Assembly (NCBI GenBank): GCA_029945375.1
Contig: JAQOTE010000022.1
Location: 1-64,000, forward strand
Reading direction: 5' to 3'
Length of the DNA stretch: 64,000 bases
Source of the DNA: Agaricus subrufescens
Taxonomy: Eukaryota; Basidiomycota; Agaricomycetes; Agaricales; Agaricaceae
Below, piece by piece: positions 21,717-44,933 of this stretch (position 1 is its first letter; each line of letters begins with the position of its first letter). The position numbers were made by a program, and so were the translations under genes. The notes under the pieces were generated by a model. It was not told the DNA's origin and made no database searches. It worked only from the letters and a program-made list of their open reading frames with translations.

Positions 21717-22480
21717 CATCGGGAAAATGGAATATCGGTAATATATCCTACATGACATAATATTATACAAAGTTAGTATAAGATAGTATATAATAGATAA
21801 ATTCACTAAATCATTCTATATATACACCAGGACTATAAATCCTGCATACCATTATTCCGAAGTCACTAATTAATTATACTTATATTGCAAACAAAATTAT
21901 ACTATAGATTAATGGTTAAACTAATATGCAATTCAGAAGTCATATAGCCTTAAATTAAACGGCAAATATCCCTAGATTAGTTGTAAATTATCTTATATTG
22001 TTACATAATATACATTTATCTAATCTGGTGACATAGTCGTAATTTCCATGGGAGACTGCTAAGGTTATGTATAAATCATTTATATATAACCAGTCAGGTG
22101 TATCTAAAATCTTGCTTACATATACAATCAAGCATGAGTAAATTGTTAATGATTTCATCTTTGAATAAGCTTAAGAGCTTGTTGATGTAGTTTGTTATGC
22201 ACTGATAAATTGTACTTGGTTTTGATTAAGTCTATTCTGAATTTAGTTATAAGTAATGCCGGGATAATACAATGTTATCTTACTGTTAAAGTGAGTTGGT
22301 GATATAGCTATGTTTACTTGCAAGCGAAAACACCTTATTAGTGGACAGATATTACTAAGCATCTATACAATCGATTTGCATCACACTGGGGATCAACCTT
22401 AAGCTTATTGGTGAACAAAGTCGGAACTGTGCGAATGTAAAAATATATTATGACAAATAAAAGTAATATGTGTTTGTCAT

Positions 22481-24378
22481 CAAAGTGGCTGTGAAATCGT
22501 AGATGAAAAAGATCCTGCTGAACTCGGCTCTGATTGTTCGTATGCTGTCGTTGACCCATCAAAATCCTCCATTCCATCAAAGTCAACCATGTCGCTAAGC
22601 CCTTGTGCGATAGTGTGCCCAACAGTAGGAATATAAGCTCTAAATAAACAAAAGTATTAGAGACTTATTTTAGTCACTGTAATTCACTTACTTGGTTCTC
22701 ATGTAGATGCGATGAAGCATCGCATGATACTTCGAAGGACTCTTTTTCTCCAATGATGCAAGATATTCTTGATGGCCTTGATAAACATCTTCGACGATGT
22801 CTACCACAAAGTCGCTTCGTTTGTAGATGCCAGTCGCCCAGTCTGCTATGGCAGCATGAACCTATAAGATCAAATAAGTTAATTTTAATTCACAATAAAA
22901 ATAGGCTTACCCCTGTGGCCGCCAGGCATACCAAGCCTACAGGCATTTCGAGTTCATCACTGAATTTTGATGAAAAGATCTGAATATTGTTTTCACCCAA
23001 AGTACCCTTCCGAGCTCCATCATCAAATAAGAATTTCCTCAAAGTTCGGATGATGACTGGATTCTCGTATGGTTTTGACACACTGACAGTACCATTTACC
23101 TATTATAATGATTGTTATATTGGTTAAATATTATGTGGTATGGTTTGCTTACCTCTAGTGGGAATATATATGTGGACTTTCGGTTGAGCTCATTAGCCTT
23201 GACCTGGATTTCTTCGGGCCTGGCATTGGGATCATCAAAACCGAAAAAGAAACCAACAAGACCTTCAGCAATTCTTTTAATCTTTGATCTACGAAGGGTT
23301 AGACGATGCTGAATCTGTTTTAGAAATGATATTAGTTTCGTTGTTACTAAGTAAATATATGAGAAACATACCACCCGAGCAACATCTTGTGAAAAATTCA
23401 AATCTTCCCGGAAGGCAACTACAAGATGGGGAAAGTTGAGATTAACTGCAACTTTCTCCAGCATAGTGGTTAGCGCTGTATATCCCAAATCATTGATAAC
23501 AAAAAAAGTATCGGCCAAAGCCTGCCTAAGTGCTAGCTTTTCCCCATGAGCTATCACTCGCCTGAGCTCAGGACTCTGGTTTCTCAACGGAATAAGCCTT
23601 CTCCCTGGATATGTTGTGTTACAGGTATCGTCCTCATCATCGGACTGGTTTGTAAATGAGACACTTATTCATTCAAGAATCAAAGAATTTACTAACTTGG
23701 TTTTGTGGTAAGTCCCTTGAAGACGAAGACCATTCTGGAACCTTAAAAAGATTTAAATTCATCAATTCATATTTTAGCTAATAAACAATACCTCTGCCCG
23801 ATATCGAGAATTGCGAAGATTTTGGCGATGTTGAATTTGGTGAGAAGCCCCCTCATCTTGTTCATCATCCCACTCATTTCCAACCACCTGGATAGCCTAG
23901 GTGTTTTTAAGTGACATGATCGATCAAAAGAAAATAAAGTGAACATACCTCCAGATCAAGTGCAGCCTGCACTTCATCGTCACCTAGACCGAGTAGATTC
24001 TCGTCAATATCACTGCCTTGGTGGCCATCAGAGCTGTTGTCTTCATTGTTTCTATCCTTATCGCTATTTTCATCAGTCAAGAGGTCATCTGAATCAGAAT
24101 CCTCATTGATTGAGGGAGGGCGAAAGATTTGTTGTGAATTCGATGCTGAAACAGGTATGTAAGTTTCTTAAGCCAAAGTGTCACCATAATAGATACTTAC
24201 CATTGCGACTCCTTTTGACAGGTCGGGGTGGGTTGGCAGGAGGTAGTTGTCGCTTTCTTGGTGGGCCATGTTGTTGAGCTTGTGTGCGAGAGCGACGAGC
24301 AGTAGTAGTAAGATTGACAGAAGACTGTCCAGCTGAGGTAGATTGAGAACTTTCTCGCCGACTAGAACGACGAGGCAT
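22481..24378 (-). CDS. DUF6532-domain protein, transposon-linked
   Basis: Several exons on the minus strand. The N-terminus is basic and low complexity (MPRRSSRRESSQSTSAGQSS, start at 24376-24378), followed by an acidic tract (SDSDDLLTDENSDKDRNNED). The conserved DUF6532 part runs from RNQSPELRRVIAHGEKLALR (23587 down) through IKRIAEGLVGFFFGFDD and STYIFPLEV to PVGLVCLAATG near 22930-22900. The last exons (EDVYQGHQEYLASLEKKSPS, HAMLHRIYMRTKAYIPTVGH) lead to TISQPL and a stop at 22481-22483. DUF6532 is a common fungal domain of unknown function, and copies are often found beside DNA transposons. The gene is divergent from the Plavaka transposase, with about 320 bp between starts, and appears intact. 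Confidence 0.78.
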
Positions 24379-24703
24379 TGGGGGGAAAGAAAAAAAAAGT
24401 AATCAAGTCGACTTTATGTAGTGAGAAGAAATGGCATTGATACCTATTAAAGATATCAAGGTCCCAACACCAGATTTGGAACTCGAGCAATTTGTCTCAC
24501 ATACTCATATTCCTAATATAGAATATCGTCCAACCAATATAATATCTCCAAATAGAATTCCATGGACCTCAAGCTAAACCCGAACATTCTATATCCAATG
24601 TGAAGTTACCCCAGTTGTTTGATAGTCGATTTGTATTGTGTAACTTCTAGAATGTAGCCGGTTTTACTAGACTGCGATTCATTAAACGATTTCATTTCTG
24701 CCA

Positions 24704-27700
24704 ATGATCTGCCCATCATGCCAAAATTCTTATAGGTCCCGGGGGCTTCGAAACCACTTTTTGCATAGTCCAGCCTGTCAACGGAAATTACAGGAGGAGG
24801 GTAAAATTATTGGACAGGAGATGGCTGAATTAGCATTTGTTGCTATTCAGGGCAGTGAGATAGGTGGGTCAATTTATGAATACCTGACTTGGTATCGTAT
24901 TCCCAATTGGTAATAATATTGTTGCAGTTGGTTTTTCAAACAATAAATCTAGCGATTATCAAGCAAAAGAGACAGATATGGTTATTGATACCAATGCCGA
25001 TGATGAAACCTGGAGCTCGGATGATAGAGATAGTGGAAATGAGTGCTTGGACACCAGTGATAGTGAAGATGATGGGACTAGTGATCATGACATAGAAAAC
25101 TACCTGGAGCCATATCGACCACCAATTTTTCATGGAGAAGATGAATACGACGAGTATAACAACTATGATGAAGATGCCAATTCTGCATCAACAGTTACAA
25201 AAACAGTTTATGATGCAAGCTGCCATTTACACCGACCTCCGACTGTCCAGAAATTTCCTGGAGAAGCAGGAAAAATCTATAGCATTGAAAATACTGGCAA
25301 TGAAAAGTATGGGGAGATGGTCGGAATATCAGAGAATGTCTATGCCCCTTTTTCATCCAAACTGGAATGGGAGATTGTAAAGTGGGCAAAACTTCAGGGA
25401 TCAACTTCAGCTGCATTTAACGATATGATGAAGATTGAAAATGTAAGTCGATACAAATTCATGTACCAAAGCTATAGTCTTATCAAAAATTAGGTACCTG
25501 AACATCTCGGTCTTTCCTTTAAATCGACAGCTGACATGAATAAGATAATCGACACAAAGCTACCTTGTGCAAGACCCCAGTTCACCCACCACCAGGTGAT
25601 AGTTGGCTCTGAAACATGTGATGTCTATTTTCGCAATATCAAAGAATGCATTCAAGCATTGCTGAACGATCCAATTCTTGCCAAGCACATGTTTTTTGCT
25701 CCTGAAAAACATTATACTGATGAATCAAAAACGACACGAATGTATCACGATATGTATACAAGCAAGTGGTGGTGGGCAACTCAAAAGGCTGTTGAAAAAC
25801 AGTCACCAGGGGCTACTATCGTTCCAGTCATTATTTCAACCGACAAAACTCAACTTACTCTATTTCGAAACAAAAGTGCATATCCTGTCTACCTGACAAT
25901 TGGAAATATTCCAAAGGAGATTCGTCGCAAACCATCGGCCCATGCTTATATTCTTCTTGGATATCTCCCAACAACACATCTCGAGACTGTTACCAATAAA
26001 GCTGCTCGGCGACGAATGATAAACAATCTATATCATTCATGTATGGGCAAGATTCTGAAACCACTGCAATGACTTGGTGAAGAGGGCACTATGATGGCTA
26101 CCACAGATGGTCATCTGCGACGAATACACCCAATTGTTGCTGCATTTGTTGGAGATTATCCCGAACAAGTTCTTACTGCTTGTATCTTCACTGGCGATTG
26201 TCCATGCTGCAAGGTATCTCGCCACAAGCTTGGAGATGCTAGTGTTCGCCATGAGCCTCGTAACCTGGCTGATGTTCTTGAAGTCCTATCTTTTGTCGAT
26301 GCTAATCCTCAAGGTTTTCTTCATGCATGCAAAGAATTTCGCATCAAACCTGTTATCTCTCCTTTTTGGAAAAACCTTCCTTACTTGGACATCTTTAACT
26401 CGATTACCCCTGATATCCTTCACCAGCTCTACCAAGGGCTCATTAAACATCTTGTTAATTGGATTCTTCAAGCATTTGGGCCTCTCGAGATTGATGCTCG
26501 GTCTCGTCGTCTTCCTCCAAACCACAACATTCGGATATTTACCAAGGGTATCAGCCCACTATCACACATTTCTGGTAAAGAGCATGATCAAATTGCCAAA
26601 ATTCTTATAGGCCTAGTTATTGGCCTTCGCCTTGACAATGGCAGCTCACCTGTGCGACTTGTTCGCTCAGTGCGAGGCATCCTAGACTTTTTATACCTGG
26701 CCCAATTCCCAGTCCATACCGACATAACTCTAGGCCTACTTCAGAAGGCAATCGACCAGTTTCACGACAACAAGGATATATTCATCCAACTAGGCATCCG
26801 AACCAACTTCAACCTTCCCAAACTTCACTTTGCAGCTCATTACATACAAAAAATCAAGTTTTTTGGCACAACCGATAACTTCAACACTGAATACACTGAA
26901 CGTCTGCATATTGATTTTGCAAAGAATGCATATTGGGCTACAAATAAAAAGGACGAATTTATTCAAATGACAACATGGTTGGAAAGAAAGGAGAAAATTC
27001 ACCGACATGAACAATTTATTCAATCAAAGTTGGAAAAAGGAAAAAGGGAGACTACTGGTGAAGAGGATTGGATTACTCCAGGGCTCTCAATCGACAGAAA
27101 ACTTCATCTTGCACATTGTCCTAGTGCAAGAAAAGTTTCAATATCCATCTTCGTTGACAAATATGGTGCTACCTACTTTCGGGAAGCATTTGCACGATTT
27201 GTTGTCTTGTCTCGCAATCCCTCACTATCGTCAACTCAGTTAGAGGAAGCCTTATGGGGTGTACAAATGCCGATTCATAACTTATGGGCCTGGCATAAAA
27301 TAAGGTTTGTGTCGACTGATAGATTTTCCCAAGCATCAACAACAGTGGATGCGATTCATGCTAATCCGGAGAACCAGAGATTTGATACTGCTCTACTACT
27401 AGTTGAAGAGGGGGCTCATGGAATACACCGTAAGTTTTGCTTCAAAAAATGTAATGTTTATCTATATTTAATGCTTCTGATAAGGTTTTCGTGTGGGTCG
27501 TATTCGGGTCATTTTTTCAATGCCCCAAAACATTCGCAAAGCAGTATTCTCAGGAATCACTATCCCTGAACATCTGGCCTATGTCGAATGGTATACCAAA
27601 TTTCCTCAATATCCTGATGCTACCCATAGGATGTACAAGATTTCTCTGCAGCATGATAGAAATGGTTCATCAAATCATGGAATCGGAAGTATTGTTCCTG

Positions 27701-27849
27701 TTTCTGACATTGTTCGGAGTGTCCATTTATTTCCAATTTTTGGACCATATGCAAACTCTGAATGGACAAACAAAAATGTTCTTGATTCTTGTAAATCCTT
27801 TTTTGTAAACCCATTTACCGACAAGTCACTATATAGATTGCTAGGATAG
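24704..27849 (+). pseudogene. Plavaka-family transposase, one in-frame stop
   Basis: Transposase of the fungal Plavaka group (CACTA superfamily), assembled from five exon pieces. The first holds a zinc-finger-like start (MICPSCQNSYRSRGLRNHF, 24704). An acidic linker exon (about 24926-25442) follows. The catalytic body starts at VPEHLGLSFKSTADMNKIID (25495). Characteristic pieces are IIDTKLPCARPQF, MYTSKWWWATQ, VPVIISTDKTQLTLFRN, TGDCPCCKVSRHKLGD, SITPDILHQLYQGLIKHLVN and FNTEYTERLHIDFAKNAYWA. The final exon (GFRVGRIRVIFSMPQNIRKA) ends SLYRLLG at 27849. A TGA at 26070-26072 interrupts the frame between KPLQ and LGEEG, while the frame and similarity continue on both sides. The gene is therefore probably inactive, or alive only through readthrough. 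The recent-looking remainder suggests late loss. Confidence 0.85.
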
Positions 27850-30007: not shown

Positions 30008-31274
30008 TATCCACTTCACTTCGATAACACCATCTCTTTGCCTATGGCCACTGGTGTAGCGCAGTTTTGTTTATGTCAGTGCCTCATCTTGTTTATGCCC
30101 GTTTATACCTGTGCCAGTGTCTCTGAGTTATCTTACCTACATGTACTTTTGCTCGAGCCGTGTCGTTGTTTCTCTCATACTATATGTTTACTATTGGATG
30201 TAGATCACATGCTTTCTCTTTTGTTTTCCTTACTACCTGCCCAATGATCACCCGAACATGTTACTTGTCTCCATCCCATACCTCAATTCTTCAGTAGCCC
30301 ATCCAATCCAAATCAGTCCTCTGCAGTCGCCAAGGAGGGCTCTAGACTTTCCGTTAAGATTTTCTTTCATATAGGATTTGGGACAAGAATAACGAAGATG
30401 AACCAGTTCGTGGCTAGCATTCAACACGTTCTCATTCGGGGGCCCATACGAGAGGCTGGGTTGAAGGAGGACCAGATAGCGGGAGCGGTGTTAGCGGTTG
30501 GAACTAGGTAGCTTATATAGTAGGTTCTGGCTGCGATGGTGGTGTGGGGAGTTTCCCTGATGCTGGAATATGGAATGTTAAGGTCAATCGTTAATATTAT
30601 GCCATGCAACACTCACAATGGCGGCACCTTGTCTCGCCAGATTCCCTAGTGTTGCACCTCAGCATAAGCGAACCGTTTCCAAAACATGCACCGACAAACC
30701 CACCACGCGTCTATTTATACATCGTTCCAAGTCTGACGTGGTAAGTAGCAGCGACGAAAAGAAAAGAGGTTGGTTGAATATGCCCAGCGTGGTCCCGGTC
30801 CAATGCGGCCCGATCAAACCGATCCGACAAATGCACTTGATGAAACACAGGCCATGGTGCCCTCTTCCACCCTCCTCTGCTATTCCTCTAGTACTCTGGT
30901 CGTCCATCGGCATGCCTCCACCACCAACGCTTATAGACACTCTCTTTTACCCCCACCACACTCTCGAGATTCCGTACCTACACACGACAACCCCACCTAG
31001 AACTACTGGCTCTCCGACTACACCGCGATCGATAAAAAGTATCGATTGATATATCGCGGGTGATGGTGTTGAAGGTGAGTGCCGAGTAAGGTGAGAAGGA
31101 AGTTGTGCATAGGACCATGTCACGACGTGGTCACACATTCTCCAAGTCGCGACAACATATTGATATTCTTTGTCGCCCTGCAGCTCTTCATCACCGGACT
31201 TTGACGGAAATGCTGGCTGAGTTGTTGTAGATTGTAACACAGCTATTCATGATCTCGTTGTTCTCCGTTTGGGT
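30008..31274. other. Unassigned segment left of the copia element
   Basis: No gene I can support. A minus-strand frame at 30612-30421 (NIPYSSIRETPHTT, YYISYLVPTANTAPAIW) reads like protein but matches nothing I know. A block at about 30283-30400 is repeated in diverged form at about 37897-38010. The last bases before the LTR, tgggt (31270-31274), are one copy of the copia target duplication. Confidence 0.45.
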
Positions 31275-31537
31275 TATTGAAATGGCTTCGGTAATGTCTT
31301 AACTTCATCTCTATTTTTATGACCTATTCTATTTTTACTTATTCTACATTTCTTTCGCCGTCTAACTTTTATCTTCATTCCGACTTCTGCCCCTCTCTTA
31401 TAACTATACAGTTTCACCTTTTCTACTATATAGTTTTACTTGTGCTGCTTCATGCCGAGAACTTATATCCGCAGCCACCATGTATCCACCTCAGCGGTCA
31501 GCTACATCTTCGTTGACGCTGAGATTGTATTCTTTTA
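31275..31537 (+). repeat. 5' LTR of the copia element (263 bp)
   Basis: Starts TATTGAAATGGCTTCGGTAA and ends GATTGTATTCTTTTA. It has the same length as the 3' LTR and differs at only three positions, each T here and C there. It is followed at once by GGTTATGGGCCCC, which looks like a primer binding site complementary to the anticodon arm of initiator tRNA-Met (contains CAT in complement). Confidence 0.93.
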
Positions 31538-31617
31538 GGTTATGGGCCCCGGTCTGTGAATCTACAGCAACGAAGTTTTTTTTGAGCAAAACAAACCGCA
31601 TACTCCAACTTTACAAC

Positions 31618-34600
31618 ATGTCTAGCACTGGTGGGAGCGCCCCCCCTATTTTCGCAGACAGCGCCAAGTTCAACAGATCGAACTGGGTGACATGGAAGGG
31701 TCTAATCCAGATAGCGGCCGACTTACGAGGCGTATCTGGGTACCTGGATGGTACTATACTGAATCCCTCCCCACAACAAACTACAAACACTACAACACCA
31801 GCCATTCCTACTGCCCCCACGGCCCCTACAACCGGAACGGCTGCCACACCTGCACAAGCCCCTGAAACGCCATGGGAATCCACATCTCCTACTCCCGCTG
31901 AGTGGAAAGTACGCAACGCCTGGGCAATGGGATTGCTCATCTATAACACAACCGACCCCCTGGGTCTCGGTATCAACATCTTGGGCACTGCTGCCGAGGC
32001 CTGGAAATCTTACACTGATGGGTATCAATTTGCCTCTGAAGTTGCGCTAGCGAATGCTGAACAAGATCTTCGCAACATGTCCTATAGCGATGGACAAGAC
32101 TTTGTCGACTTCATATCTAAGCTCAGGACTAAATGGTCTAATGCCACTGCCCTCGGAGCGAAGATCGACGATTCCGCATTCAGAATGATTATTTTGAACG
32201 CCCTACCTCGGTCATGGGATTCGATCGTTGCTACCTTATACACCACCCACACTTCTCGTGACGCCATCAACCAACTTATGACACACTGGGCTAGGATTAG
32301 CCGTGATCGTGTCATAAACCCTCAGACAACTACTGCTGCCCTTCGTGCCGAAGGTAGTGGCGGGAATGGCAACAACGGTGGCAATAGCAACAACCAAGCT
32401 CGTATATGCAGTAACTCGAATTGCAACAGGCATGGGCACACTATCGAAAACTGCTATTGGCCCGGCGGGGGCAAAGCTGGGCAGTTTCCCCCTGGCTTTG
32501 GGAAGCGTAACAATAGGAGACAGCAGAACGGATCCTCTAGTACCCAACAAACATCTGCGAACGCCGTTAGCAAAAACGCTGAGCAAGTCTTCGCCTTAGT
32601 CACTTACATCCCCACCGACACCTCTGAGGTATCTACACAGCCGTCGTCCCAGCCGTTTTCCCAATCTGACTCCATCGCACCCATTGCTAGGTCGTTCAAA
32701 TCTGATCTAGTTTTTGGCACGGCTGATGTGAGAGATGTGTTGGGAGATACTTCTAAGGACTTCACCTCGTTTATACCACAATGCCTAAATGTCCATACAA
32801 CCGTTAACAAAGCCTCCACTCTTCTTGATTCCGGCGCCAGCGATCATTGTTTCGTCGCCAGGGAATTCTTTTCTGCATACAAAGCTATGACACCACCCAG
32901 AACTGGAAACTCGGCAGGGAAAGGGTCGACTTTCTCTATCGAGGGCTCTGGCACCGCCGAATTCAGTACCACGATTGATGGCATCTCGTTGAAGATACTG
33001 ATGGCGGGTGCACTTCATACGCCACAACTTCGATCAAATTTGATATCTGTGTCGAAGTTGGTTAGCAAAGGTTTACACGTAAGCTTTGAGGGGGATATGG
33101 CGAGGGTGAAACAACCTGGCGGAAAGACAGTCCTTACAGCTATAAAACAGAACGGATTATATGTTGTGCCGATGAATGAAAATGCACGCACGAATGTTAA
33201 TACTTTCCAATTTAAACGGAAGGCTGTTTCTTTTGACATATGGCACCGAAGACTTGGACATGTGGGCGCCGACTCTCTGAAGGGGATGGTGAATGAGGGT
33301 TTGGTGGATGGATTGGAGATGAGTGGACCGGCGGAGATGAAGGCGCTTTGCGAAGATTGCATCTACGGGACGCACACGAGCCATCCATTTGCAGAGTCGA
33401 CCGCAAGCGAAGTTGAGCCACTAGAGCGGGTATACATAGACATTTGGGGACCAGCCTCCACACAATCGGCTGGGGGTGCTAGCTACTTCATGCTGATTGT
33501 TGACGGCACCACAGGGTATCGCGTCGTATACTTCTTGGCTTCGAAGTCTGCGGATGCAACGCTACGCGTGTTTAAGGAGTTCCACTCGATGGCGGAGCGA
33601 CAGACAGGCAGGAAGTTAAAACGAGTGCGCGCAGACATGGGCAAGGAGTGGTGCAACGCCACGTGGGACGAATACATAAAAAGGTTCGGCATCACTTTGG
33701 ACTTTACTACCCCCTACGCCCACCAGCAAAATGGCAAGGCTGAGCACTCCATGCGCACTTTGCTGGATACCGCGCGAACCATGCTGGCGGATTCTGGCCT
33801 GCCGCAGAAGTTCTGGGCCGACGCCGTTCAAACTGCGGTATATACTAGGAATTTTATTCCGAGTGCTCGCTCACCTTCTGCTATCCCGGCAGGCACTTGG
33901 TTCAAATGTCGTCAAGATATCTCCCATCTCTGGCCTTTTGGCTCCACAGCATATGCGCATATACCTCACGAAGTCAGCCCCTCGAAACTCGCTCCCCGAT
34001 TGGCGAAGCTGACGCTACTGGGTTACTTTGACCGGTCTGGGTACAAGTTGGTGGATCGTACAACTGGATCTGTCTACAAGTCCAGAGATGTTATATTTGA
34101 AGAATCCCCGCCACATTTTAGCACTGACCCCATCATCCGTTTCACGCCCGACGACCTCACACCGTACAGCACCGCGATTGCGCCACGACCAAAGTCCACA
34201 ACAAGTCTTCACCCCTCGACCGCGCCACCACCGCCACCTGCACCACCTGCGCCGCCTGTTCATACTCAACCCGCTCCTGGTCCTGTCTTGCCACCAGCGG
34301 GTGTTGACGCTGGGCGCAACAGTGAAGACGAGGTGTCTGACGCTGTCATGCCTGGGGGAGACCTACCCATCGCTATTTGGAAGGCGAAGAGAGAGACAAG
34401 GACTTCTGCGAGGATGAAGGACAGCCTTGAATACCTAAGCCGACCAACAGCGAGTATGGCTACAATGGATCTTGATGACTCCGCCGTTCCTTCGATGTTC
34501 CACCAGGCGATGAAACGACCTGAACTGTGGTTACAACCAATGATGAAGGAACTAGCTGTGATGGAAGCTAAGGGCGTGTTTCGTCTGGTACCGCGACCTG

Positions 34601-36030
34601 TTGGAAAGAATGTTGTGAAGTCTAAGTGGGTCTTTGCCAATAAGTATGACGATGAAGGGGCGATTGTTGACAGAAAGGCGAGATTAGTAGCGAAGGGCTT
34701 CACGCAAATTCTTGGGGAAGATTATGATGAAACTTATGCCTCGGTTGCACGCTTGGAGTCGGTCCGGATGGTGTGCGCTATAGCTGCCTCTTGTGGCTTG
34801 CGACTATGGCAGGTCGACTTTGTCTCTGCGTTTTTGAACAGCGAGAATACGTTCGAGATATTCATGGAACAGCCGCCGGGTTTCGACGAGGGGGGAGATT
34901 ATGTTTGGTTGCTCCTCAAAACCCTTTACGGGACGATGCAAGGAGCCCATGATTGGGCCGTCACGCTTGAACGCGCATATAACAGCCACGGATATTACAC
35001 TTCAAAGGCGGATTCACAAGTCAGGTCTAAACTGGTCAACGGCGAGTTTACAATAACCTCAACATGGACAGACGATATATTGGGGGCGTCATCAACAGAA
35101 GCGGGAGAAAAAAAGGCCAAGGAGGAGCTGAAGAGTAGCTATGAGATAAAGGATCTGGGTACAGCGAGGTACATTTTGGGGATGAAGATTGAGCGCAGAG
35201 ACGATGGAAGCATCAAGCTATCGCAGCGGGCTTACTCAGAACGTGTATTGACTCGCTTCAATATGGATGAAGCTAAACCACGAAGTACTCCGCTACCAGC
35301 AGGACTGATACTGTCGAATAAGGAATCACCGGTGATGGAGGAGGAAATACGCGATATGAAAGAAGTGCTGTACCGCGAAGCCCTTGGGTCACTGATGTGG
35401 CTGCAAGTGGCGACTAGACCGGATCTCTCATTTGCGGTGAACCTTCTCTCTCGTTTTGCACATAACCCGGGACGAGCACATTGGAATGCGCTTAAGCACA
35501 CTCTTGCTTATCTCAAAAACACCCTCGACTATGGTATTGTCTACTTTTACAATTCTAGCCTGCGACCTTTTGGGTATGTCGATGCGGACTATGCAGGCGA
35601 CATTGACGTCCGACGATCAACTGAGGGCTACGTCTTCTTCATGGCAGGAGGACCTGTATCATGGGCTAGCAAACGTCAAGAAACAGTTGCGCTGTCGACA
35701 GTAGAGGCGGAATACATGGCTTTCACCCGAGCTATTCAACATGCGATCTGGATGGACAAGTTTTTAGATGAGGTTGGGTTGACACAAGAGAAGCCGACTA
35801 AGATCTTCGGGGACAACACAGGAGCCATTGCGAACACGCAAAACAACAAAAACCATCGACGGACTAAACATATTGATATTAAGCATCACTTTATCAAGGA
35901 GAAAGTCGCTTCTGGTATAGTAGCTTTCAACTACGTCCCGACAGCAGAGAATCTGGCCGACATATTAACGAAGCCATTGGCGAAGGATGCCATCCTGAGA
36001 TGCTGCAAGGAAATGGGAATAAGGGGATGA
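31618..36030 (+). CDS. Copia Gag-Pol polyprotein
   Basis: A single 1470-residue frame starting MSSTGGSAPPIFADSAKF at 31618. An upstream in-frame ATG at 31480 lies within the LTR and is less likely. Order of domains: Gag (about residues 1-250), zinc knuckle CSNSNCNRHGHTIENC, aspartic protease LLDSGASDHCF, integrase zinc-binding WHRRLGH with CEDC, and integrase core with Asp in YIDIWGP, Asp in RADMGKEW and Glu in NGKAEHSMR. The reverse transcriptase has LWQVDFVSAFLNSE and an active-site TWTDDILGAS, so the usual YVDD tyrosine/valine positions are Trp/Thr. RNase H has YVDADYAGD, ALSTVEAEYMA and the closing HRRTKHIDIKHHFI. No stop or frameshift is present, so it may be active. Stop at 36028-36030. 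Confidence 0.93.
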   Translation: MSSTGGSAPPIFADSAKFNRSNWVTWKGLIQIAADLRGVSGYLDGTILNPSPQQTTNTTTPAIPTAPTAPTTGTAATPAQAPETPWESTSPTPAEWKVRNAWAMGLLIYNTTDPLGLGINILGTAAEAWKSYTDGYQFASEVALANAEQDLRNMSYSDGQDFVDFISKLRTKWSNATALGAKIDDSAFRMIILNALPRSWDSIVATLYTTHTSRDAINQLMTHWARISRDRVINPQTTTAALRAEGSGGNGNNGGNSNNQARICSNSNCNRHGHTIENCYWPGGGKAGQFPPGFGKRNNRRQQNGSSSTQQTSANAVSKNAEQVFALVTYIPTDTSEVSTQPSSQPFSQSDSIAPIARSFKSDLVFGTADVRDVLGDTSKDFTSFIPQCLNVHTTVNKASTLLDSGASDHCFVAREFFSAYKAMTPPRTGNSAGKGSTFSIEGSGTAEFSTTIDGISLKILMAGALHTPQLRSNLISVSKLVSKGLHVSFEGDMARVKQPGGKTVLTAIKQNGLYVVPMNENARTNVNTFQFKRKAVSFDIWHRRLGHVGADSLKGMVNEGLVDGLEMSGPAEMKALCEDCIYGTHTSHPFAESTASEVEPLERVYIDIWGPASTQSAGGASYFMLIVDGTTGYRVVYFLASKSADATLRVFKEFHSMAERQTGRKLKRVRADMGKEWCNATWDEYIKRFGITLDFTTPYAHQQNGKAEHSMRTLLDTARTMLADSGLPQKFWADAVQTAVYTRNFIPSARSPSAIPAGTWFKCRQDISHLWPFGSTAYAHIPHEVSPSKLAPRLAKLTLLGYFDRSGYKLVDRTTGSVYKSRDVIFEESPPHFSTDPIIRFTPDDLTPYSTAIAPRPKSTTSLHPSTAPPPPPAPPAPPVHTQPAPGPVLPPAGVDAGRNSEDEVSDAVMPGGDLPIAIWKAKRETRTSARMKDSLEYLSRPTASMATMDLDDSAVPSMFHQAMKRPELWLQPMMKELAVMEAKGVFRLVPRPVGKNVVKSKWVFANKYDDEGAIVDRKARLVAKGFTQILGEDYDETYASVARLESVRMVCAIAASCGLRLWQVDFVSAFLNSENTFEIFMEQPPGFDEGGDYVWLLLKTLYGTMQGAHDWAVTLERAYNSHGYYTSKADSQVRSKLVNGEFTITSTWTDDILGASSTEAGEKKAKEELKSSYEIKDLGTARYILGMKIERRDDGSIKLSQRAYSERVLTRFNMDEAKPRSTPLPAGLILSNKESPVMEEEIRDMKEVLYREALGSLMWLQVATRPDLSFAVNLLSRFAHNPGRAHWNALKHTLAYLKNTLDYGIVYFYNSSLRPFGYVDADYAGDIDVRRSTEGYVFFMAGGPVSWASKRQETVALSTVEAEYMAFTRAIQHAIWMDKFLDEVGLTQEKPTKIFGDNTGAIANTQNNKNHRRTKHIDIKHHFIKEKVASGIVAFNYVPTAENLADILTKPLAKDAILRCCKEMGIRG

Positions 36031-36058
36031 TAGACTGCTATAACCGAAGCAGGGGGAG

Positions 36059-36321
36059 TATTGAAATGGCTTCGGTAACGTCTTAACTTCATCTCTATTT
36101 TTATGACCTATTCTATTTTTACTTATTCTACATTTCTTTCGCCGTCTAACTTTTATCTTCATTCCGACTTCTGCCCCTCTCTTATAACCATACAGTTTCA
36201 CCTTTTCTACTATATAGTTTTACTTGTGCCGCTTCATGCCGAGAACTTATATCCGCAGCCACCATGTATCCACCTCAGCGGTCAGCTACATCTTCGTTGA
36301 CGCTGAGATTGTATTCTTTTA
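36059..36321 (+). repeat. 3' LTR of the copia element (263 bp)
   Basis: The direct repeat of 31275-31537, with C at the three positions where the 5' LTR has T. It is preceded by the polypurine tract and followed by cgggt, the right copy of the target duplication. Confidence 0.93.
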
Positions 36322-36326
36322 CGGGT

Positions 36327-39199
36327 GATTACGAGCATTTCGCCGTCACTTCACCGTGTTTTTTGTGTTGTATGCATTCGGAATGAGAAGCGTAGATGGC
36401 GTACAAGAGGCGCACCTCGGTCTCAATCAGCATGAATGTGTAGACCAGGATGCGAAAGTCGTCTAGAGAACGTTCAGAAGTCACAGAGGTGCAGTCCAAG
36501 GCCACCAGAGCCAGCATAAAGACGAATTCAGCATGAGAAGACGGCGGTCGTAAGTCAGAAAGTAGAACACCAAGAAATGAAGTTTTCGGTTCTATCAAAG
36601 CAGATAGATTGAAGTAGATCAAGACGTTATATATGTTCAAAAACAAAGCTGAGTCCTCTCGATACGTGAGTTTCTCGTGGTACCTAATCTATCTGTAAGA
36701 ACGGCTCAGATTATGGATTTGAGGATCAAAAGAATACGAACCTTTTCAACATATCGGGGATCTATATGTTTGACAAAGAGGATTGGCGAGCAGGGGGCTG
36801 AAATTTTTCTTTTGAGTCAATCTAACATTTGCGAAAAGATAAGAGACCAACATACCAACAATTCTGGCCTTATAATTGAGAAGTTTATGGCAGAGCTTAA
36901 TGTGCTTCTCATGTCTCGTCGGCACCTTGAGATGTGTGCCCACTTCTTTCACAGCAAAGTCGGCAAACCGTTAGCGGGTATTGATCCACCAGCTACTCGC
37001 ATTTGCCACCCTGTCCCTCTACTTCTTGATTTTATGCTAGTCCAACGTTTTGCTGATTGCATCTCTCGTGATAGTTTTGCTATCTTTTTCCGATTTTTCA
37101 AGCTTTCACATGTCCACAGGTATCGCCGGCAGAGTGGCCAAATAAAACGAGAGTCGATTCGTCAACATCTGTGCCATCATGATTTTATGTTAACTTAGGA
37201 CGCATATCAAATATAGACAGACATACTGATCATCGTATACGTTCACCTGTCATCGTTCGCAATACCGTCGCATCCGGATCTGGTCCATTCATGGTGGCTC
37301 ATGTGGTGTTCGTGCATGTCGCGAACTGTATCCCCACGCGCGAATAAACTGATGCACGACCATACGCAAACCTTTTACTGGAGCCGTATAGGGTTAGCAC
37401 TTTATCTCTCTAGCGGTCATCACCACTTCAATCCACGCAGATGCTATGCCATAAGCACAGTACACATGGACCTTCCTGTCGTCTGCACAAATAGATGTAG
37501 TCGGTTATATGGCTGTTCACTGTCATACTGCTCCACTTACCCGGTACCAAAATACCCGATCTCAACCCGATCTCATTCGTCAGAAGTAGCCCTCTGGAAT
37601 AATGTTTGCTTTGAAACACGTGGGACGTTCGATGTTGCTGATTTCTGGACGACGGAGGTGACAAGAATCGAGTAGCGTTCAATACCATGTATTTCAATCC
37701 GGGCCTGTGACCGAGTCCATAACCATTTCATAGACAAAGGTATCGACAAACAGATGCTATTGCGATTGTGACAGACGTGGCGCTGCGGAACTTGGTGTTC
37801 TATATGTCTAAACTTGAAAGGCGACTTTGTCAGCTTTTCCGGACATACGCCACCATAACAGAATGAGAGGCGTACCCATTATCTCTGGCTCGTACTTGAA
37901 CTCTCCAGTAGCCTGTCCGATCCAAACGAAAATTTAGTCCTGTACGCCCAGAGGGCTCTGGATATTCCGTCAAAAATTTCTCTCATGCAGCATTAGGGAC
38001 AAAGAAATTGCTCACATGAGTTGACATCGCATTAACCATATGGTAGAGTTGTTATGCAGCGTTCGCGTCTGCGCAGTTTGCAGCCGCCACCGTTGGACTC
38101 CAGACCTTCCAGACCATCAAACTAAACCAAGCATAGTGTTCGACGTGCCTTTGCAGCCTGAGAATGAAGAACGTGACGAGGATGCAATGTGGCGGGAGGC
38201 ATATCTCTCTGACTCAAGATGGGTAAAGGTATCTGTTTCGATCAGTCAAAATCAACGACGGTCACACCGGGTCATGCTTACCATTACACTTTTGTTGTCA
38301 AGTCACTGAGTGTTGAGCCCGTGTCGAATGGAGTCATGGTTCCGGCGTAATACTTGGGCTGATGCAGGGGTGGGGGATGAAAAAGTAAACTGGAGGTAGA
38401 CTCGTGGGATGTTCCTATTCACAGGCACAAAATTGTATGACCGAGAGGCTGGTGAGGGAGGAATGGCATGGTGGATCAGGGCTTTTGAGCATGAAAGCGA
38501 GAGCCATAAGGGAGTGACCACGTACAAGTGTTGAAAATGCCTTGGGTCGCCCTAATATTAGGTCTCCAGCGATCACCACCACTCCAAACGACATCAATGC
38601 ATCAGCATAAGTGTCTATACAGAAATAGATAGTCAGTCGTGCTACTGTTCACTTTATTCTTTCCAACTTACCTGCTGCCTGACCGTCAGATAGAATTAAG
38701 CCCCAAATGCCAGTTCATTACCCTCGTTGGGCATCATAATTCCTTCCTACTCTATTGGATTACAGCGTATCTTGAGGATGGCAAGTCATTGTTTGAGTGG
38801 AAACAGGATTTGCTGCTGCCCTGCGCACCGCGAAGATATAACGTTGTGAAAGCGACAGAAGACTTGCTGAGAGACGCGCGTCTGTATACAAAATGTCCAC
38901 CGTTGAACGTGAATTCTGAAGCCACAGAAAGTCACGGGCTAACAAAGACAAGAGCCAAGCACGGGGGGCCCTGGGCTAGAGAGCATGCGAGATTGTGACG
39001 TCACGCTCTCGACTTGTCCTGCAATCTCATGGCCCCGGCATCTCCAAACAGCAGCGATCGCATCTTCGGGCACGAATCTGTTTGCTGTTTGCCCAGCCAC
39101 TCTCGCCCTCCATGGCCGACCTCCTGTCCCCGCCACTCACCACCAGCCAACGCCAGAACCGGGCCGCCGTCTGTCCGTCCTCTACCACCTCCTTCCCGT
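36327..39199. other. Unassigned segment right of the copia element
   Basis: Nearly 2.9 kb with no supportable gene. Frames at 36677-37198 (plus) and 36646-36329 (minus) are open but lack family resemblance or splice logic. A block at about 37897-38010 is a diverged repeat of 30283-30400. The part from 38985 onward becomes GC-rich and runs into the KRE6 fragment. Confidence 0.45.
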
Positions 39200-39866
39200 C
39201 CCCCGCTCTCTTCCCGCCCACCCTCTCGTTCCACCACCACCCTCTCCGCGTTCACTCTGTCCTCCTCAGCCCTCATCCTTGCCCTTCGCGCCCTCTTTGT
39301 GTTCTATCCAATTTTTTCCGTGACCGAGGGAGGAACGATTCTATTGTTGGTAATGTACGCGTCACCAGCATAGGTAAGTCATCCATTACCTCCTCCATTC
39401 CCTTCTCAATTTTTGTCTACAGGACAATCACCTGCCCGACTCCATCGATCGTAGCGCTCCCAAAGCAGCAGCCTCGTATTGGTTTCAGCGGTAAAGGATC
39501 CGAGCTCGTCTTCTCCGACGAGTCCAACCAGGACGGCAGGTCATTCTATCCCGGTGACGACCCCTTCTGGGAAGCTGCTGAGCTCTGGTATGGTCTAACC
39601 AGGGGTTCAGAGTGGCGTGACCCGCAATAACTCACCACTCGTGATGGTGCCCTCGCCATAACCCTTGAATCCTGCGGCACTCTTCAACCTCACCTCACTC
39701 CTAGTCAGTACCCCTCCTTGTTGTTGATAATTCCTCCTTTGTTAACGACATCACAGGTTCGACTGCTCCATTCACTACCGCTGACAATCAGGACCCGAAT
39801 TACCGCAGTAGGATGCTTCAATCATGGAACAAATTCTGCTTTACTCAAGACATGCTCGTCATCTAA
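39200..39866 (+). pseudogene. Fragment of a KRE6/SKN1-type beta-1,6-glucan synthesis gene
   Basis: KRE6/SKN1 proteins are type II membrane proteins with a GH16-like lumenal domain, needed for cell-wall beta-glucan. Here only the N-terminal part is present. A hydrophobic stretch (SSALILALRALFVFYPIF, about 39258-39311) would be the membrane anchor. After an intron-like gap comes SGKGSELVFSDESNQDGRSF, then YPGDDPFWEAAELW, both matching the start of the family's catalytic domain, and later NYRSRMLQSWNKFCFTQD (39799-39852). A stop at 39628-39630 breaks the frame between WRDPQ and LTTRDGALAITLE. The rest of the domain is missing, and the sequence passes straight into an acetolactate synthase fragment. 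It looks like a captured host gene piece. Confidence 0.75.
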
Positions 39867-39897
39867 GTCGCACCACCGTTGTGAATACGAGCCCAGC

Positions 39898-41395
39898 TCC
39901 CCCTCTGTCCGTCTTCAGTGTTATCCGTTCTCTGCACTTCTCTAACTTCCCCGCTGCAGCCACCCCAGTCAAGCACCTGCAAACCAACCCATCCCCACAC
40001 TTATAACGTCCATCTACCCCCCACGCACATCAATGGTCCAGGACCCGCGCCCCACCTGCCTCTGGATCATGCTTTCGTTGGTCTCTCCGGCGGACAGATC
40101 TTTCATGAAATGATGCTTCGCCATGGGGTAAAGCATATTTTTGGATGCCCGGGAGGTGCCATCCTTCCCGTGTTTGGTGCCATCTACAACTCCCCCAATT
40201 TTGAATTTGTCCTCCCCCGCCATGAACAAGGTGTTGGTCATATGGCGGAGGGCTATGCCCGCGTATCCGGAAAGCCAGGTATCGCTCTCGTCACATCTGG
40301 CCCTGGTGCCACCAATGCCATCACCCCGATGCAGGATGCCCTACGCGACGGCATTCCTCCCGTCGTGTTCTGCGGCCAAGTGGCGACTTCTGCCATCGGT
40401 TCTGGTGCCTTCCAGAAGGCCGGCGTTGCCAGTATCTCGCGAAGTTGCACTAAATGGAACGTCATGGTCAAGGATATCTCTGAACTACCCAGACGTATCA
40501 ATGAAGCCTTCAAAATTGCAACTTCAGGTCGTCCTGGCCCTGTCCTCATTGACCTGCCAAAAGATACCACCACCGGCATCCTCCGCCAACCTCATCCCCT
40601 GTAAAACTACCACTCCTGGTATCCCTCTGCATCCTCTCCATTTACCCGATTTCCCTGCAGACGTTCAGTCTACCAAGCAGGCAGCCGCCTTGATCAACCA
40701 GGCACAACGGCCTGTCGTTTATGCTGGAAACGGCATACCCGCCTCTCCTTAAGGCCCGCTCATTCTCCAAAAGCTGGCGGAAAAAGGAAACATTCCTGCA
40801 ACGACAAGTTTACAGGGTCCCGGTGCATTCAACGAAGAAGATCCTCGTCCACTGCACATGTTTGGTATGCGCGGCAGCACGTACGCCAACCTTGCCATGC
40901 AACAAGCCGGTGCCATCACCGCTCCTGGTGCTCTTTTTGATGATCGTGTAACTGGCAGAGTAGACCAATTCGCACCCGCTGCTCGCGCCGCCGCCGCCTA
41001 AGGCCGCAGTGGTATAATCCATTTTGAAATTCAACCCAAAAATATCAACAAGGCCGCCGGTGCTTCCATCCCGATCTTAGGAGACGCAGCAATGGACCTG
41101 GGGGCTCCCGTTCCTATGACCGAGTTTTCACCCCGTGAACCTTGGTTCAACGACATTCAAAAATGGAAGAGTCAATACCCGTCCGTATCCCAAAAGAGTG
41201 GGAAAGGAGAGACGATGAAGCCCCAGGAGATGATTGAAGAGATGGACCGGCAATGCGCCTTGAAAAAGGACGATGCCGTGGTGTCAACTGGTGTTGGACA
41301 ACATCAAATGTGGACAGCACAACACTAGGTGGAGACATCCAAGATCTCTCCCCCACTTCCGGTGGTCTAGGCGTGCGTTTGCCCTTTCTTTTTCT
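39898..41395 (+). pseudogene. ILV2: Broken acetolactate synthase catalytic subunit gene (ILV2-like)
   Basis: Acetolactate synthase is the mitochondrial enzyme that starts branched-chain amino acid synthesis. The N-terminal domain is well preserved at 40080-40600: GLSGGQIFHEMMLRHGVKHI, FGCPGGAILPVF, PRHEQGVGHMAEGYARVSG, VTSGPGATNAITP, and GRPGPVLIDLPKD. It is then broken: a stop at 40602-40604, a frame change by about 40660, stops at 40750-40752 and 40999-41001, and another after MWTAQH near 41326-41328. Family parts remain between the breaks: AQRPVVYAGNGI, LHMFGMRGSTYANLAMQQAG, the FAD-domain motif FDDRVTGRVDQFAPAARAA, and VSTGVGQHQMW. The C-terminal thiamine-diphosphate part after TSGGLG is absent. 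It is GC-rich like the neighbouring KRE6 fragment. Confidence 0.9.
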
Positions 41396-42914
41396 AACTT
41401 TCCCCGGTGAGACCATTGTCCCAATGCTACCGTTTTAACTCGCTGATCTCATGTGCCAGATTTCATGAACACACCAATAAGACGCTTGAGTGCTGACGTG
41501 CGGACGCAGCTGAGTTATACCAACCACCCGCTAGATTGTTGCCAGTATGCAGGAATTTCGGCCTGCGAAAACCACGGGGAACCAAAACAAAAGTACCCAA
41601 ACAAGCCGAATAAGCCACCAGTGTTTATTTCCTCTTCTAATGGGCCCCCATCTGCCGTTCCCCTAACTACCAAGATTACGAATTATCTGGTCCCAGTGGT
41701 GGGTGGCCACTGGTCTGCCGCGCCCACCCTATCACGTGATTTATGTTTAGTTTCCAAGCAGCTGCCCCGGGCTAGTTGCAGCCTGCCACCACTGCACCAG
41801 GCCCCATTGGTTGGCAATGTTACACTACCAGGCCTAGTCCCCGCACTGCCAGCACCCCACTCCCCCATCCGCCAGTTGCGCACCCCGCAGTCCGAAAATA
41901 CCATGCCATTGAGTGCGTGTGCTCCGCGGTCCTAGGTGCTTTTGCGCCGGACGCGTTGTGTGCTCTGGATGGGAAAATAGGCTGCGCCGCGCACCTGGCT
42001 AGTCCTGGCCCCGCAAGCACCGCGCCCACCAGTTGCGCATCCTGCTGTCCGAAAATACCGCGCCATTGGGCACGTGTGCTCTGCGGTCCTAGGTGCTTTT
42101 GCGCCGGACGCGTTGTGTGCTCTGGATGGGAAAATAGGCTGCAGCACGCACCACCCCTGTTCCCGGTGCCAACCCGCAGCCGGGCACTCCATGGACCTAG
42201 GCACTTTTGTACTAGACTGGCACCCCGCCGCCCTTTCCCCCCCCCCCCCTCCACTTCTGCCAGACCCACAGCATGCGCCCTGGGGCTATGCTTTGCTGAT
42301 CCCAAGTACCTGGCACAGTTGTCCAATGGATTCAGCAGCATCCACCCAAGTATCGTAAGCTGTTATTCCGCCTGCCAGTCCATATCCAAATTCCCATCTG
42401 ACCACTTTTCCAGTGCGTTTGGCGGCTGTTCTCCATGGACTGTATTCCTCCCCAGTTGCACCGCCCCTGTGGTTCTGTTCACGGCTGCCTCTTCTGCATG
42501 GAGGTAAACTTCTGGAAACATAAGCTTGGGCGGACGTCAACTAAGTGCAGGTTGCGGGATGGACAGTGGGAGAGCAGGAGAGGGAATATGGTGGTCGAAA
42601 CTGCAGTGGTGGCAGCGCCAGCGCTCCAGATGGGAAAACAGCCTGCAGTGCGCGCTGCCCCCCCCTCCTATCAGCTGCCACCGGTTGTCTACCACCTGCT
42701 ACCCATGCCGCAGATTGCTATATTTAATACATTTATAATACATTTATAATGGTAACATATTATTTACTTGGGATGCAGCCTGATTGGCAGCCGCTAAAAC
42801 ATACTATATAAACAAACCCAGGTAGATCTTCCCACCTGCTGCCCACCTATTGCCTGCGACCATCCTTCCACTACTCCTACCTCCCACCAACTTGTCTACT
42901 ATACTAGTTCTACT
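41396..42914. other. GC-rich gene-less segment with degenerate tandem repeats
   Basis: No gene seen; the many open frames here come from high GC and repetition. It includes the tandem repeat listed separately and a C-run at 42239-42252. The last 200 bp (42720-42914) turn AT-rich and probably form the promoter of the dioxygenase gene. Confidence 0.5.
41830..42230. repeat. Degenerate tandem repeat, unit about 155 bp
   Basis: Two similar units lie at about 41830-41985 and 41997-42144, sharing tccgaaaatacc, gcggtcctaggtgcttttg and gctctggatgggaaaatagg. A third, decayed unit follows (ccatggacctaggcactttt near 42190). A further trace (gctccagatgggaaaacagc) lies near 42624. It is GC-rich and looks like a minisatellite inside the composite element. 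Confidence 0.75.
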
Positions 42915-44560
42915 ATGGGCAAGCGCCGGTCCCGCCAACCTTTTGTAGATGCAAGAACGAAAGCTGCTGAGAGGGAGCAGATTGATCGCGAAGAATTGGT
43001 GTATCGATCTGCAGTGCAGGATGAAGAAATATGCACTCTCTTGAGAAATGCCCGCACCCACCAGGACCAACAAGAGATCGGGCAGAGGATCAAGAGCAGG
43101 TGGCCCGAAGAACTCACAGCACCCCCTCCAACAATTGTCGGCAATCTTCTCTCTTGGGCTGGTAGGAGGGATGTCAGGCCCACTCTGGAAGGAATTTCTT
43201 CTATTGGACAAATTCTTGACTACCGAAAACGAACCCAAACCAATTATCGCTCTGCCAAACGACAATTAATTACACTCAGCCATCTAAACCCCAACAAATT
43301 TGATAAGGCTACATTTTATTCCTCAGTACCTCAGTATTCGTGCCACCGCCTCCCTAAGGACAAGCCCTACCCCCCTCTCAGTATATATGCTGCTGAGACT
43401 GCTGAAATCACACGACGAAACTACAAATTTGTCAACGAGCGGGAACTTCCAGATCGCCGCAAATCTCGGAAATTAATATGCAATTTGTGGGATGGAACCA
43501 CTGGTGACTTCCGATTTGATTTAGATCCAAATGAAAGTGGAGTATTTAGGGATGCAAAAACTGGCGAGTTGGTTGCTGTTGCAATCCGGGGAGCTTGTGG
43601 AGATCAGAGGGTAGTGGGTTTTTTGGATCGTGCGATCCAGAAAGTCATAGAGACTCGCACTAATATTCGTGTAAGCACAGTTTGCTGGTTCTGTATTTTA
43701 TTTATCAGCTACTGACTATCTAGTAGAAGGAAGACCGGGGCCATATGTCGCAGATGGGACTTTCAGCTGGCTCCCTTAGCCATGGTATGCTCGGTTGGGT
43801 CAGGAATGTCGCCCGAAAGAAGAAAGACCTTGAAGAACACCGTATGGTTGATTACGATGCATCTTCTGCATTTGCTGTCCTTTGGGGACTAGCCCGCACA
43901 CTTCTCCCTGATGAAATAATCAGGGATTTTGCTGAATTCATTGAAAGCCTAGGTCCTGAGTTGCGAATGGATGGCAACAAATCCATGGATGTTGATTCAA
44001 CTGGATGCGGAACTTACCACATTGATATAGGTACGAAGGATCTTGAATACCACCATGCTGAGCTATCCCCCCCTGCTGGTGTTATGTCCGAAAATTATTG
44101 CAGGTATACACATTTGGAAAGCTCGCCACACAAATTCGCCATATCATTCACAACATCCCGTTCCTATGATCCTAGTATCAATGCAGTTGATGCAGGGGGA
44201 CACTTCTATATTGCTTCTTATGGTATTCGCATTCAAGCAGCTTCGGATACTCTCATTGCATGGAAGCCAACCGATCTGCATGGGACCACTCTTCTCCACA
44301 TTGATCCTTATAATCCTCCACAAGAATATCACCAGCGAAATATGGCCCTTGTTACTAGCCCTCGTATTCCAGGAGTAGTGAAGAAATGGAGAGATGGCAT
44401 CTATTCGAGAGAGGAGATGGAGAGGGAAGCAGCAGTTGCCGATTACCACGACAATCTTGATGATGAGCTGGAGGAGATAAATAATTCATTGAAGAAACAA
44501 GATGTTCGGAGGTCAAAGCGTCTTGAAGGCAAAGCACAGCTTGACTATTCCTTGTTCTGA
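42915..44560 (+). CDS. Probable TET/JBP-like 2-oxoglutarate/Fe(II) dioxygenase, transposon-linked
   Basis: Two exons (42915-43670, 43727-44560, phase 0, 56-nt intron) give 529 residues. The N-terminal 200 residues (MGKRRSRQPFVDARTKAAER) are basic and helical. The C-terminal half looks like a double-stranded beta-helix oxygenase: HLE at residues 381-383 as candidate HxD/E metal ligands, GGHFYIASYGIRI as core strands, TLIAWKPTDLHGTT with the distal His at about residue 437, and QRNMALVTS with Arg about 456 as candidate 2-oxoglutarate binder. The tail VRRSKRLEGKAQ is basic. Basidiomycete TET/JBP-type enzymes, which oxidise 5-methylcytosine, are known to travel with KDZ-type transposons. This gene lies 373 bp from the right terminal repeat of the composite element. 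The family call is inference from motifs; the frame is intact. Confidence 0.65.
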
Positions 44561-44933
44561 GTGGCTAGCAGTGAAATTTATCTTTTTACTTTTTGTCTTA
44601 GTGTGCTACCTTGTCGTAACTGCTCTACAGTTTATATATTTGAATTCCCTTGTCCATTGGGAAACCAAGTTATTTGTATGGGCTGCTAGAACACATGCAA
44701 TATTGGCGGTTACAAACTCCAGCCCTTGTTGTTAAAATATAACAAACTATACTAACTAATCCAAAATTAATCAAAATTATGCTTGATTTATATGCACCAA
44801 AAATTTGCACTCTTGAACCAATAATACCTTCAATACAATTTAGTGAACCTAGCTTAAATTATCTAAATTACTCCGGCTTAAACTGTCTTATCTGGTATTA
44901 CTGCCCATTTAACGATCTCCCATTTTCCTGATG
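44561..44933. other. AT-rich right terminal region of the composite element
   Basis: Non-coding, AT-rich. It carries subterminal sequence resembling the left end (ttcactaaat-type motif near 44840 in complement) and the right terminal inverted repeat at 44909-44933. Confidence 0.6.

Follow-up and report, generated by a model that had tools for sequence, protein, structure and literature searches.

Plavaka elements abound in certain mushroom genomes; in Marasmius oreades, KDZ or Plavaka accounts for about half of the DNA elements (PMC8290104). PlavakaB has been defined by CATCA..TGATG termini and target-site duplications (TSDs) of 2 or 3 bp, and TET-bearing members (TET+ PlavakaB) were reported in Agaricus bisporus and Gymnopus confluens by Kojima in December 2025, together with the proposal that TET/JBP genes on such elements protect from methylation silencing (PMC12730594). 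The block studied here spans positions 21717 to 44933 (23,217 bp) of a 64,000-nt stretch of Agaricus subrufescens DNA (contig JAQOTE010000022.1, positions 1 to 64,000, forward strand), which we call the window and whose numbering is used throughout. Judged from its sequence, and with a probability of roughly 0.85, it represents one PlavakaB-type (CMC/CACTA-like) DDE transposon. It is a real, unusually large, mosaic member of this recently published transposon group, and its new part seems to be its size and composition, with fragments from three host genes and an orphan SANT-like gene between the transposase and the right end.

The window makes up the first 64 kb of its contig, which is 184 kb long, in a genome of 44.65 Mb in 44 contigs; C1, C2, C4-C11, C28, C32 etc. 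denote other contigs of the same assembly. Once a nested copia retrotransposon is subtracted, the element measures 18.2 kb.

Element ends, target site and relatives in the genome

The boundaries and the target are given by the following features:

21715..21716, no strand: left TSD copy, TT
21717..21741, plus strand: left terminal inverted repeat, starts CATCGGGAAAATGG
44909..44933, minus strand: right terminal inverted repeat, starts CATCAGGAAAATGG on the minus strand
44934..44935, no strand: right TSD copy, TT
6938..9335, plus strand: DUF6533 locus, paralogous to the target and uninterrupted, in inverted orientation to it, with the empty site

The left end reads CATCGGGAAAATGGAATATCGGTAA from 21717, and the right end, as reverse complement, reads CATCAGGAAAATGGGAGATCGTTAA, closing at 44933. 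With 21 of 25 bases identical, these are the matching imperfect terminal repeats that a first-pass annotation of this DNA had described, and none of 200,000 randomly drawn internal 25-mer pairs equalled that identity. Compared with 5'-CATCA..TGATG-3', the right end shows CATCA and the left end CATCG, the single departure. The block is flanked by TT/TT, a 2-bp TSD within the 2 or 3 bp of the definition.

Three empty sites without the block were found, namely the inverted paralogue in the window, a copy on C1 near 1.7375 Mb and an inverted copy on C2 near 0.502 Mb, the latter two sharing 99.3% identity. Homology of the left flank to the paralogue stops at 21720 and that of the right flank begins at 44931; with the block and one TT removed, the flanks align to the paralogue without a gap through the junction. 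In C1:1733500-1742500 and C2:498000-506500, window positions 17.4-21.7 kb adjoin 44.9-46.0 kb, the block is missing and a single TT is present. Against the C1 copy, the joined flanks show 89.5% identity in an alignment of 2,977 columns that is again gapless at the junction and has one TT. The insertion point corresponds to 7437-7445 of the paralogue, within a DUF6533 match at 7372-7479 (33.0 bits, cut-off 24.1), and the block split one DUF6533 gene copy on insertion. The earlier statement that the flanks rejoin into a DUF6533 gene with an intact homologue is borne out by the paralogue, and the C1 and C2 copies agree. A Pfam scan of the open reading frame (ORF) 7699-8415 of the paralogue was without match, DUF6533 being found in the preceding exon.

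The genome holds 145 DUF6533 matches, four of which lie within the first 11 kb of the window, at 262-366, 5195-5302, 7372-7479, and 10442-10546. Window positions 1-11 kb and 17-50 kb are also present near C1 1.716-1.742 Mb and, inverted, C2 0.498-0.524 Mb. These C1 and C2 regions are 99.3% identical over 8.5 kb and the window copy 89-96%, as alleles or duplicated segments.

The end motif CATCRGGAAAATGG at one mismatch or fewer revealed 124 matches genome-wide, versus 6 for a reversed-pattern control. Among 100 of the 124 matches listed, 19 neighbouring pairs are 0.3-30 kb apart, 13 of them convergent (including the window pair), 3 divergent, and 3 on the same strand; pairing of such ends at other places, which the first-pass annotation had proposed to check, is confirmed. 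Six of the 13 convergent pairs carry an exact 2-bp TSD, at a chance of about 0.06 per pair. The TSD-positive pairs count as five independent ones, because C9:852282 and C6:1131209 have the same flanks (5 of 12 counting identical-flank copies once). The convergent pairs are as follows:

With exact 2-bp TSD: window, TT; C9:1511850, AT; C9:852282, TA; C10:1193576, TT; C6:151557, TC; C6:1131209, TA
Without exact 2-bp TSD: C9:1388714; C9:1065576; C2:1029073; C5:2264742; C1:2151454; C10:1819095; C10:1923527

The interval C9:1511850-1517838 (5,989 bp) shares 65% DNA identity with the window transposase, C9:852282-861694 (9,413 bp) encodes PF18759, and transposase DNA was matched at more than 20 other places in the genome. 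The pairs C9:852282-861694 and C6:1131209-1140621 enclose a 9.4-kb Plavaka copy with identical flanks on two contigs, which suggests a duplicated segment. Plavaka ends also flank a 387-bp miniature element, which occurs at C10:1193576, 1819095, and 1923527, with an exact 2-bp TSD in one of the three. The 24.4-kb interval C9:1065576-1089982 was considered as a giant element and rejected, its right 'end' reading CAACAGG... and a TSD being absent.

Gene content and host gene pieces

Between its ends the element holds the following features, the outer limits of the DUF6532-like gene and of the transposase gene being drawn from ORFs by eye (LTR, long terminal repeat):

22341..24413, minus strand: DUF6532-like companion gene, core 23099-23668; PF20149 at 19.8 bits, under the cut-off of 24
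24686..27846, plus strand: Plavaka transposase gene, several exons, PF18759
28223..30007, plus strand: SANT/Myb-like gene, intact, 556 aa, exons 28223-28411, 28464-28604, 28667-30007
30265..31274, plus strand: KRE6-family-derived block, left part
31275..36321, plus strand: nested Ty1/copia retrotransposon, LTRs 31275-31537 and 36059-36321, 1,554-aa gag-pol ORF 31366-36027
36322..39849, plus strand: KRE6-family-derived block, right part, KRE6-like upstream DNA and 5' gene part; PF03935 at 39475-39672 and 39774-39872
39851..41407, plus strand: ILV2 (acetolactate synthase) fragment, TPP_enzyme_N 4.1e-36, frame broken
41401..41527, plus strand: RAD1/XPF fragment 1, 78% identical to C1
41580..41659, plus strand: RAD1/XPF fragment 2, 81% identical to C1
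41668..42786, no strand: non-coding stretch of about 1.1 kb, tandem pair 41869-41995/42026-42152
42915..44560, plus strand: TET/JBP-like dioxygenase gene, intact, 529 aa, exons 42915-43670 and 43727-44560

The Plavaka transposase named in the first-pass annotation was recovered as two PF18759 pieces (E 6.2e-67 and 3.6e-44), divided by an in-frame TGA at 26070-26072 within the transposase domain that had been overlooked. Because of this TGA the element is at present probably not autonomous; a TAG at 25491-25493 probably falls in an intron, judged by eye. The putative assignment to PlavakaB rests on PF18759, the terminus type and the 2-bp TSD, and these fit the group.

The DUF6532-like gene and the transposase form a core that recurs in the smaller C9 relative of 5,989 bp (C9:1511850), which encodes a protein related to the DUF6532-like one at the same position (38% over 81 aa, E 7e-16); a Pfam scan of this C9 protein gave nothing. 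Both the DUF6532 gene and the SANT-like gene announced earlier were located, yet their domain matches are below the curated cut-offs (19.8 versus 24 and 19.1 versus 27 bits, respectively). A second genome copy of the SANT/Myb-like gene was not found with queries that included the ORF of its first exon. For its protein, none of 7,997 scored candidates qualified as a homologue at E<=0.001; the candidate list may have been crowded by the low-complexity tail of the protein.

The dioxygenase gene previously seen near the right end is present and intact, and its kind, left unnamed before, is TET/JBP-like of the HxE ('PE') type. It stops 373 bp short of the right end at 44933 and so lies within the terminal repeats. 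The window protein has HLE, with the codon of the HxE histidine at 44111 and that of the distal histidine at 44279. In the homologue alignment, where 3 of 11 rows were unusable, HxE is retained in 7 of 8 in-frame rows (the eighth has HNK) and the distal histidine in all 8. A TET-like fold was recovered on the model of the A. bisporus homologue, which is 49% identical (mean pLDDT 63.8).

Other genome copies of the TET-like gene were considered as Plavaka cargo and rejected at 10 loci of 3.3-3.5 kb, within those stretches. The 1-mismatch matches to the end motif in L029-L032 (four labels for two loci) fall inside TET-like coding sequence, and locus L025 has one match at 2 mismatches. An isolated piece matching the first exon of the window TET-like gene, 86% identical, lies at C8:2161538-2161996 (L047:3039-3497) beside ORFs that look retroelement-like by eye. 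Further TET-like genes are found at C7:2979764-2980667, C1:5970203-5971109, and C5:2896452-2897318; their match to exon 2 of the window gene is broken by a short gap, probably an intron, which the window gene does not have.

The captured KRE6 and ILV2 pieces were both recovered as first described (PF03935 E 1.3e-15; TPP_enzyme_N E 4.1e-36), and a third host gene, RAD1/XPF, had been missed. Judging by their matches, the three derive from separate host loci. KRE6 relatives occur on C10 at 190-335 kb, on C4, C5 and elsewhere, C5 holding a copia-free counterpart of the KRE6 block. The ILV2 fragment is 92-93% identical to C10:1530088-1531643 and C28:24487-26042, the gene being intact there and decayed here, and it meets the KRE6 block abruptly, with one unassigned base between them. 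Of at least 120 ILV2 homologues, the best one bearing an organism name is from Leucocoprinus leucothites (82% over 92% of the query), which agrees with a probable agaric host, and a metagenome protein reaches 93%. In the RAD1/XPF source gene on C1 (5.54 Mb), 2.2 kb separates the two pieces. On these alignments the capture took place at the DNA level, because DNA from upstream of KRE6 has been kept, as has the gap that separates the two KRE6 coding matches. The KRE6-like family (PF03935) comprises 96 exon-level matches in the genome, many of them clustered (C10:190-335 kb, C4:1-45 kb) and several with internal stops.

The nested copia, with its LTRs, gag, and an integrase ahead of RVT_2 in Ty1/copia order, takes up 5,047 of 23,217 bp (22% of the element). 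Its LTRs differ at 3 of 263 sites (98.9% identical), and it is nearly intact. It is a later insertion and a nested passenger rather than a part of the Plavaka unit.

Of the non-coding stretch, 41668-41879 and 42711-42786 recur adjacent to each other and in the same order, together with a KRE6 piece, in a separate 5-copy repeat (C11:2246500-2255500, here L042; C11:2284696-2293696; C7:2052012-2060811; C32:46713-55263; C4:3661407-3668528). The copies of this repeat are near-identical (99.94% for C11 against C7 over 5 kb). As though it were also gathering gene fragments, it holds a glycerol-3-phosphate-dehydrogenase-like N-terminus besides a KRE6 5' piece. As a Plavaka element it was rejected: CATCNGGAAAATG was unmatched in stretches of 9, 5, and 5 kb, and at 2 mismatches to the 14-base end motif only CATCAGGAAAAACT, in L042, was found.

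Outside the element, window positions 17104-19213 and 50108-51804 form direct repeats on either side of it, 85-86% similar and about 33 kb apart. They resemble an SMC protein by eye, and Pfam on ORF 16777-17472 gave weak coiled-coil matches. A Ty3-type retrotransposon with Ty3_capsid and RVT_1 matches lies at 57650-60954.

Possible origins of the present structure

Several observations weigh against a single transposon of the composition described above. Seven of the 13 convergent pairs are without an exact 2-bp TSD, and the left end is one base off CATCA. The genome search revealed no second element with this content, an absent match that does not prove rarity, and the 184-bp left end matched only itself in the genome. 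As to the TET-like cargo, the fold matches are low (TMt 0.36-0.51 at E<=0.001), with TET2 and CMD1 at E above 0.001. The predicted model of the window's own exon 2 is poor (43.6), and the fold evidence is that of the A. bisporus homologue. When solved structures were searched with a profile of the TET alignment, no TET came up, only a replisome organizer at E 0.066. The 23-kb Plavaka unit of the first-pass annotation therefore stands in part: the ends enclose all 23 kb, but 22% of it is nested copia that had been missed, and the whole may or may not have moved as one unit, the left end having matched only itself.

A history that we take seriously, somewhat short of even odds, is growth in place. 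A smaller Plavaka with DUF6532, transposase and perhaps the SANT and TET genes would have landed first; nested insertion or repair would later have brought in the KRE6/ILV2/RAD1 block together with the copia element, such that no 23-kb or 18-kb unit ever moved. It accords with the single occurrence of the element and with the position of the nearly intact copia within the KRE6 block. A precedent is given by C9:1388714-1411803, a 23.1-kb interval made up of a 9.4-kb Plavaka copy (98.9% identical) and two LTR elements, copia-type by eye. It was rejected as a second giant cargo element, and it shows that a 9.4-kb Plavaka can reach 23 kb through two LTR-element insertions alone; in the window element, by contrast, most of the extra length is not copia. 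Since the order of segments is common to the 5-copy repeat, part of the host block may have arrived ready-made. The ILV2 and RAD1 pieces are, however, unmatched in that repeat. No terminal repeats or TSDs were found around the host block on comparing 30.0-30.6 with 41.35-42.9 kb, where the longest shared word is 11 bases direct and 10 inverted; with shared words this short, Helitron or terminal-inverted-repeat boundaries were rejected, which speaks against later arrival by nested insertion. Divergence does not settle whether capture or insertion came first, identity being 89% between the flanks and the empty C1 copy and 92-93% between the ILV2 piece and its source, and growth in place is compatible with these values.

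Tentatively, and with odds below even, a giant Plavaka may instead have arrived fully loaded, with a transposase locus of its own, a TET-like enzyme acting against silencing, a SANT-like protein and chimeric pieces of at least three host genes.

On the main reading of one PlavakaB-type transposon, cutting and pasting by way of the ends would have been the work of the transposase. The TET-like enzyme, by its predicted activity, would have oxidised methylcytosine on the element DNA and so countered silencing, and the SANT-like protein would have bound element DNA. The host pieces may have been joined end to end during break repair in the element, through end joining or template switching, an origin proposed because the examined junctions carry no transposon signature.

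Rather unlikely is a macrotransposon, in which the left end stems from a 6-kb Plavaka minus its right end and the right end from a second, TET-bearing element, the two having enclosed host DNA and then moved jointly. In all 8 inspected relatives (about four groups of near-copies, judged by coordinates), 0.53-0.66 kb separates the transposase homology from the right end, compared with 17.4 kb in the window element, which favours such a fusion; by eye, moreover, the right end in the window is closer to the left than to the right end of C9:1511850-1517838. Yet no remnant end at 2 mismatches or fewer was found in 27.8-30.2 kb, and a separate right end near 28-30 kb, which the first-pass annotation had named as the result that would break up the unit, is rejected. 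Minus-strand end matches in the interior lie at 40638 and 41413 (2 mismatches each), and those at 3 mismatches include 27606, 28342, and 29872. Likewise, the gapless empty sites with TT/TT show a single insertion delimited by the present pair of ends; they would still be compatible with an older fusion at another place.

That the ends are due to chance or to an assembly artefact, the block being no transposon unit, is highly improbable: the block is single-copy and on a 184-kb contig, but the 21/25 inverted identity falls precisely at the homology breaks, the same motif bounds transposase-bearing elements elsewhere, and two empty copies of the locus exist (C1, C2).

Comparison with known systems

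The PlavakaB-type transposon delimited here is closest to the published TET+ PlavakaB elements, with which it shares a Plavaka transposase, CATCA..TGATG-type termini, a 2-bp TSD and an HxE TET/JBP gene within the ends (PMC12730594). Compared with the main-text descriptions of the published elements (PMC12730594), it seems to add a SANT-like gene without found homologues, fragments from three host loci, a nested copia and a length of 23.2 kb. The first-pass opinion that no such element had been described has to be narrowed, since TET-bearing PlavakaB are published (PMC12730594), whereas the size and cargo composition still seem new. Among the titles and starts of abstracts listed, none describes the capture by Plavaka of a host gene outside TET/JBP.

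Pack-TYPE elements are by definition non-autonomous and without a transposase gene. The window element has several host gene fragments between its ends, and a broken transposase gene is present. As far as the accounts of plant CACTA elements with host fragments and of Pack-TYPE elements describe them, the likeness consists in CMC-type inverted ends around several gene fragments (PMC8903248, PMC1947982, PMC8978399), while the window element keeps its broken transposase plus accessory genes, exists in one copy and resides in a fungal host. Fungal Helitrons with captured gene fragments, cited in a review, reach up to 14 kb (PMC6431247); chimeric host fragments within a mobile element are common to both, but the window element has cut-and-paste ends with a TSD, and no Helitron protein was found among the 20 block ORFs scanned. 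The enlarged En/Spm (CACTA) families of 16-20 kb in the red alga Chondrus crispus, cited in the same review, are also CMC-type, similar in size and richer in genes than usual; they belong to a different lineage, and host-gene fragments are not mentioned in the passage of the review concerned (PMC6431247).

If the element did land with its cargo, it would be to fungi what gene-carrying CACTA elements are to plants, set in an autonomous-type frame. Should the cargo prove mobile, Plavaka would be counted with CACTA, Mutator, and Helitron among the shufflers of host genes, as a class that also bears TET-like enzymes thought to counter methylation silencing.

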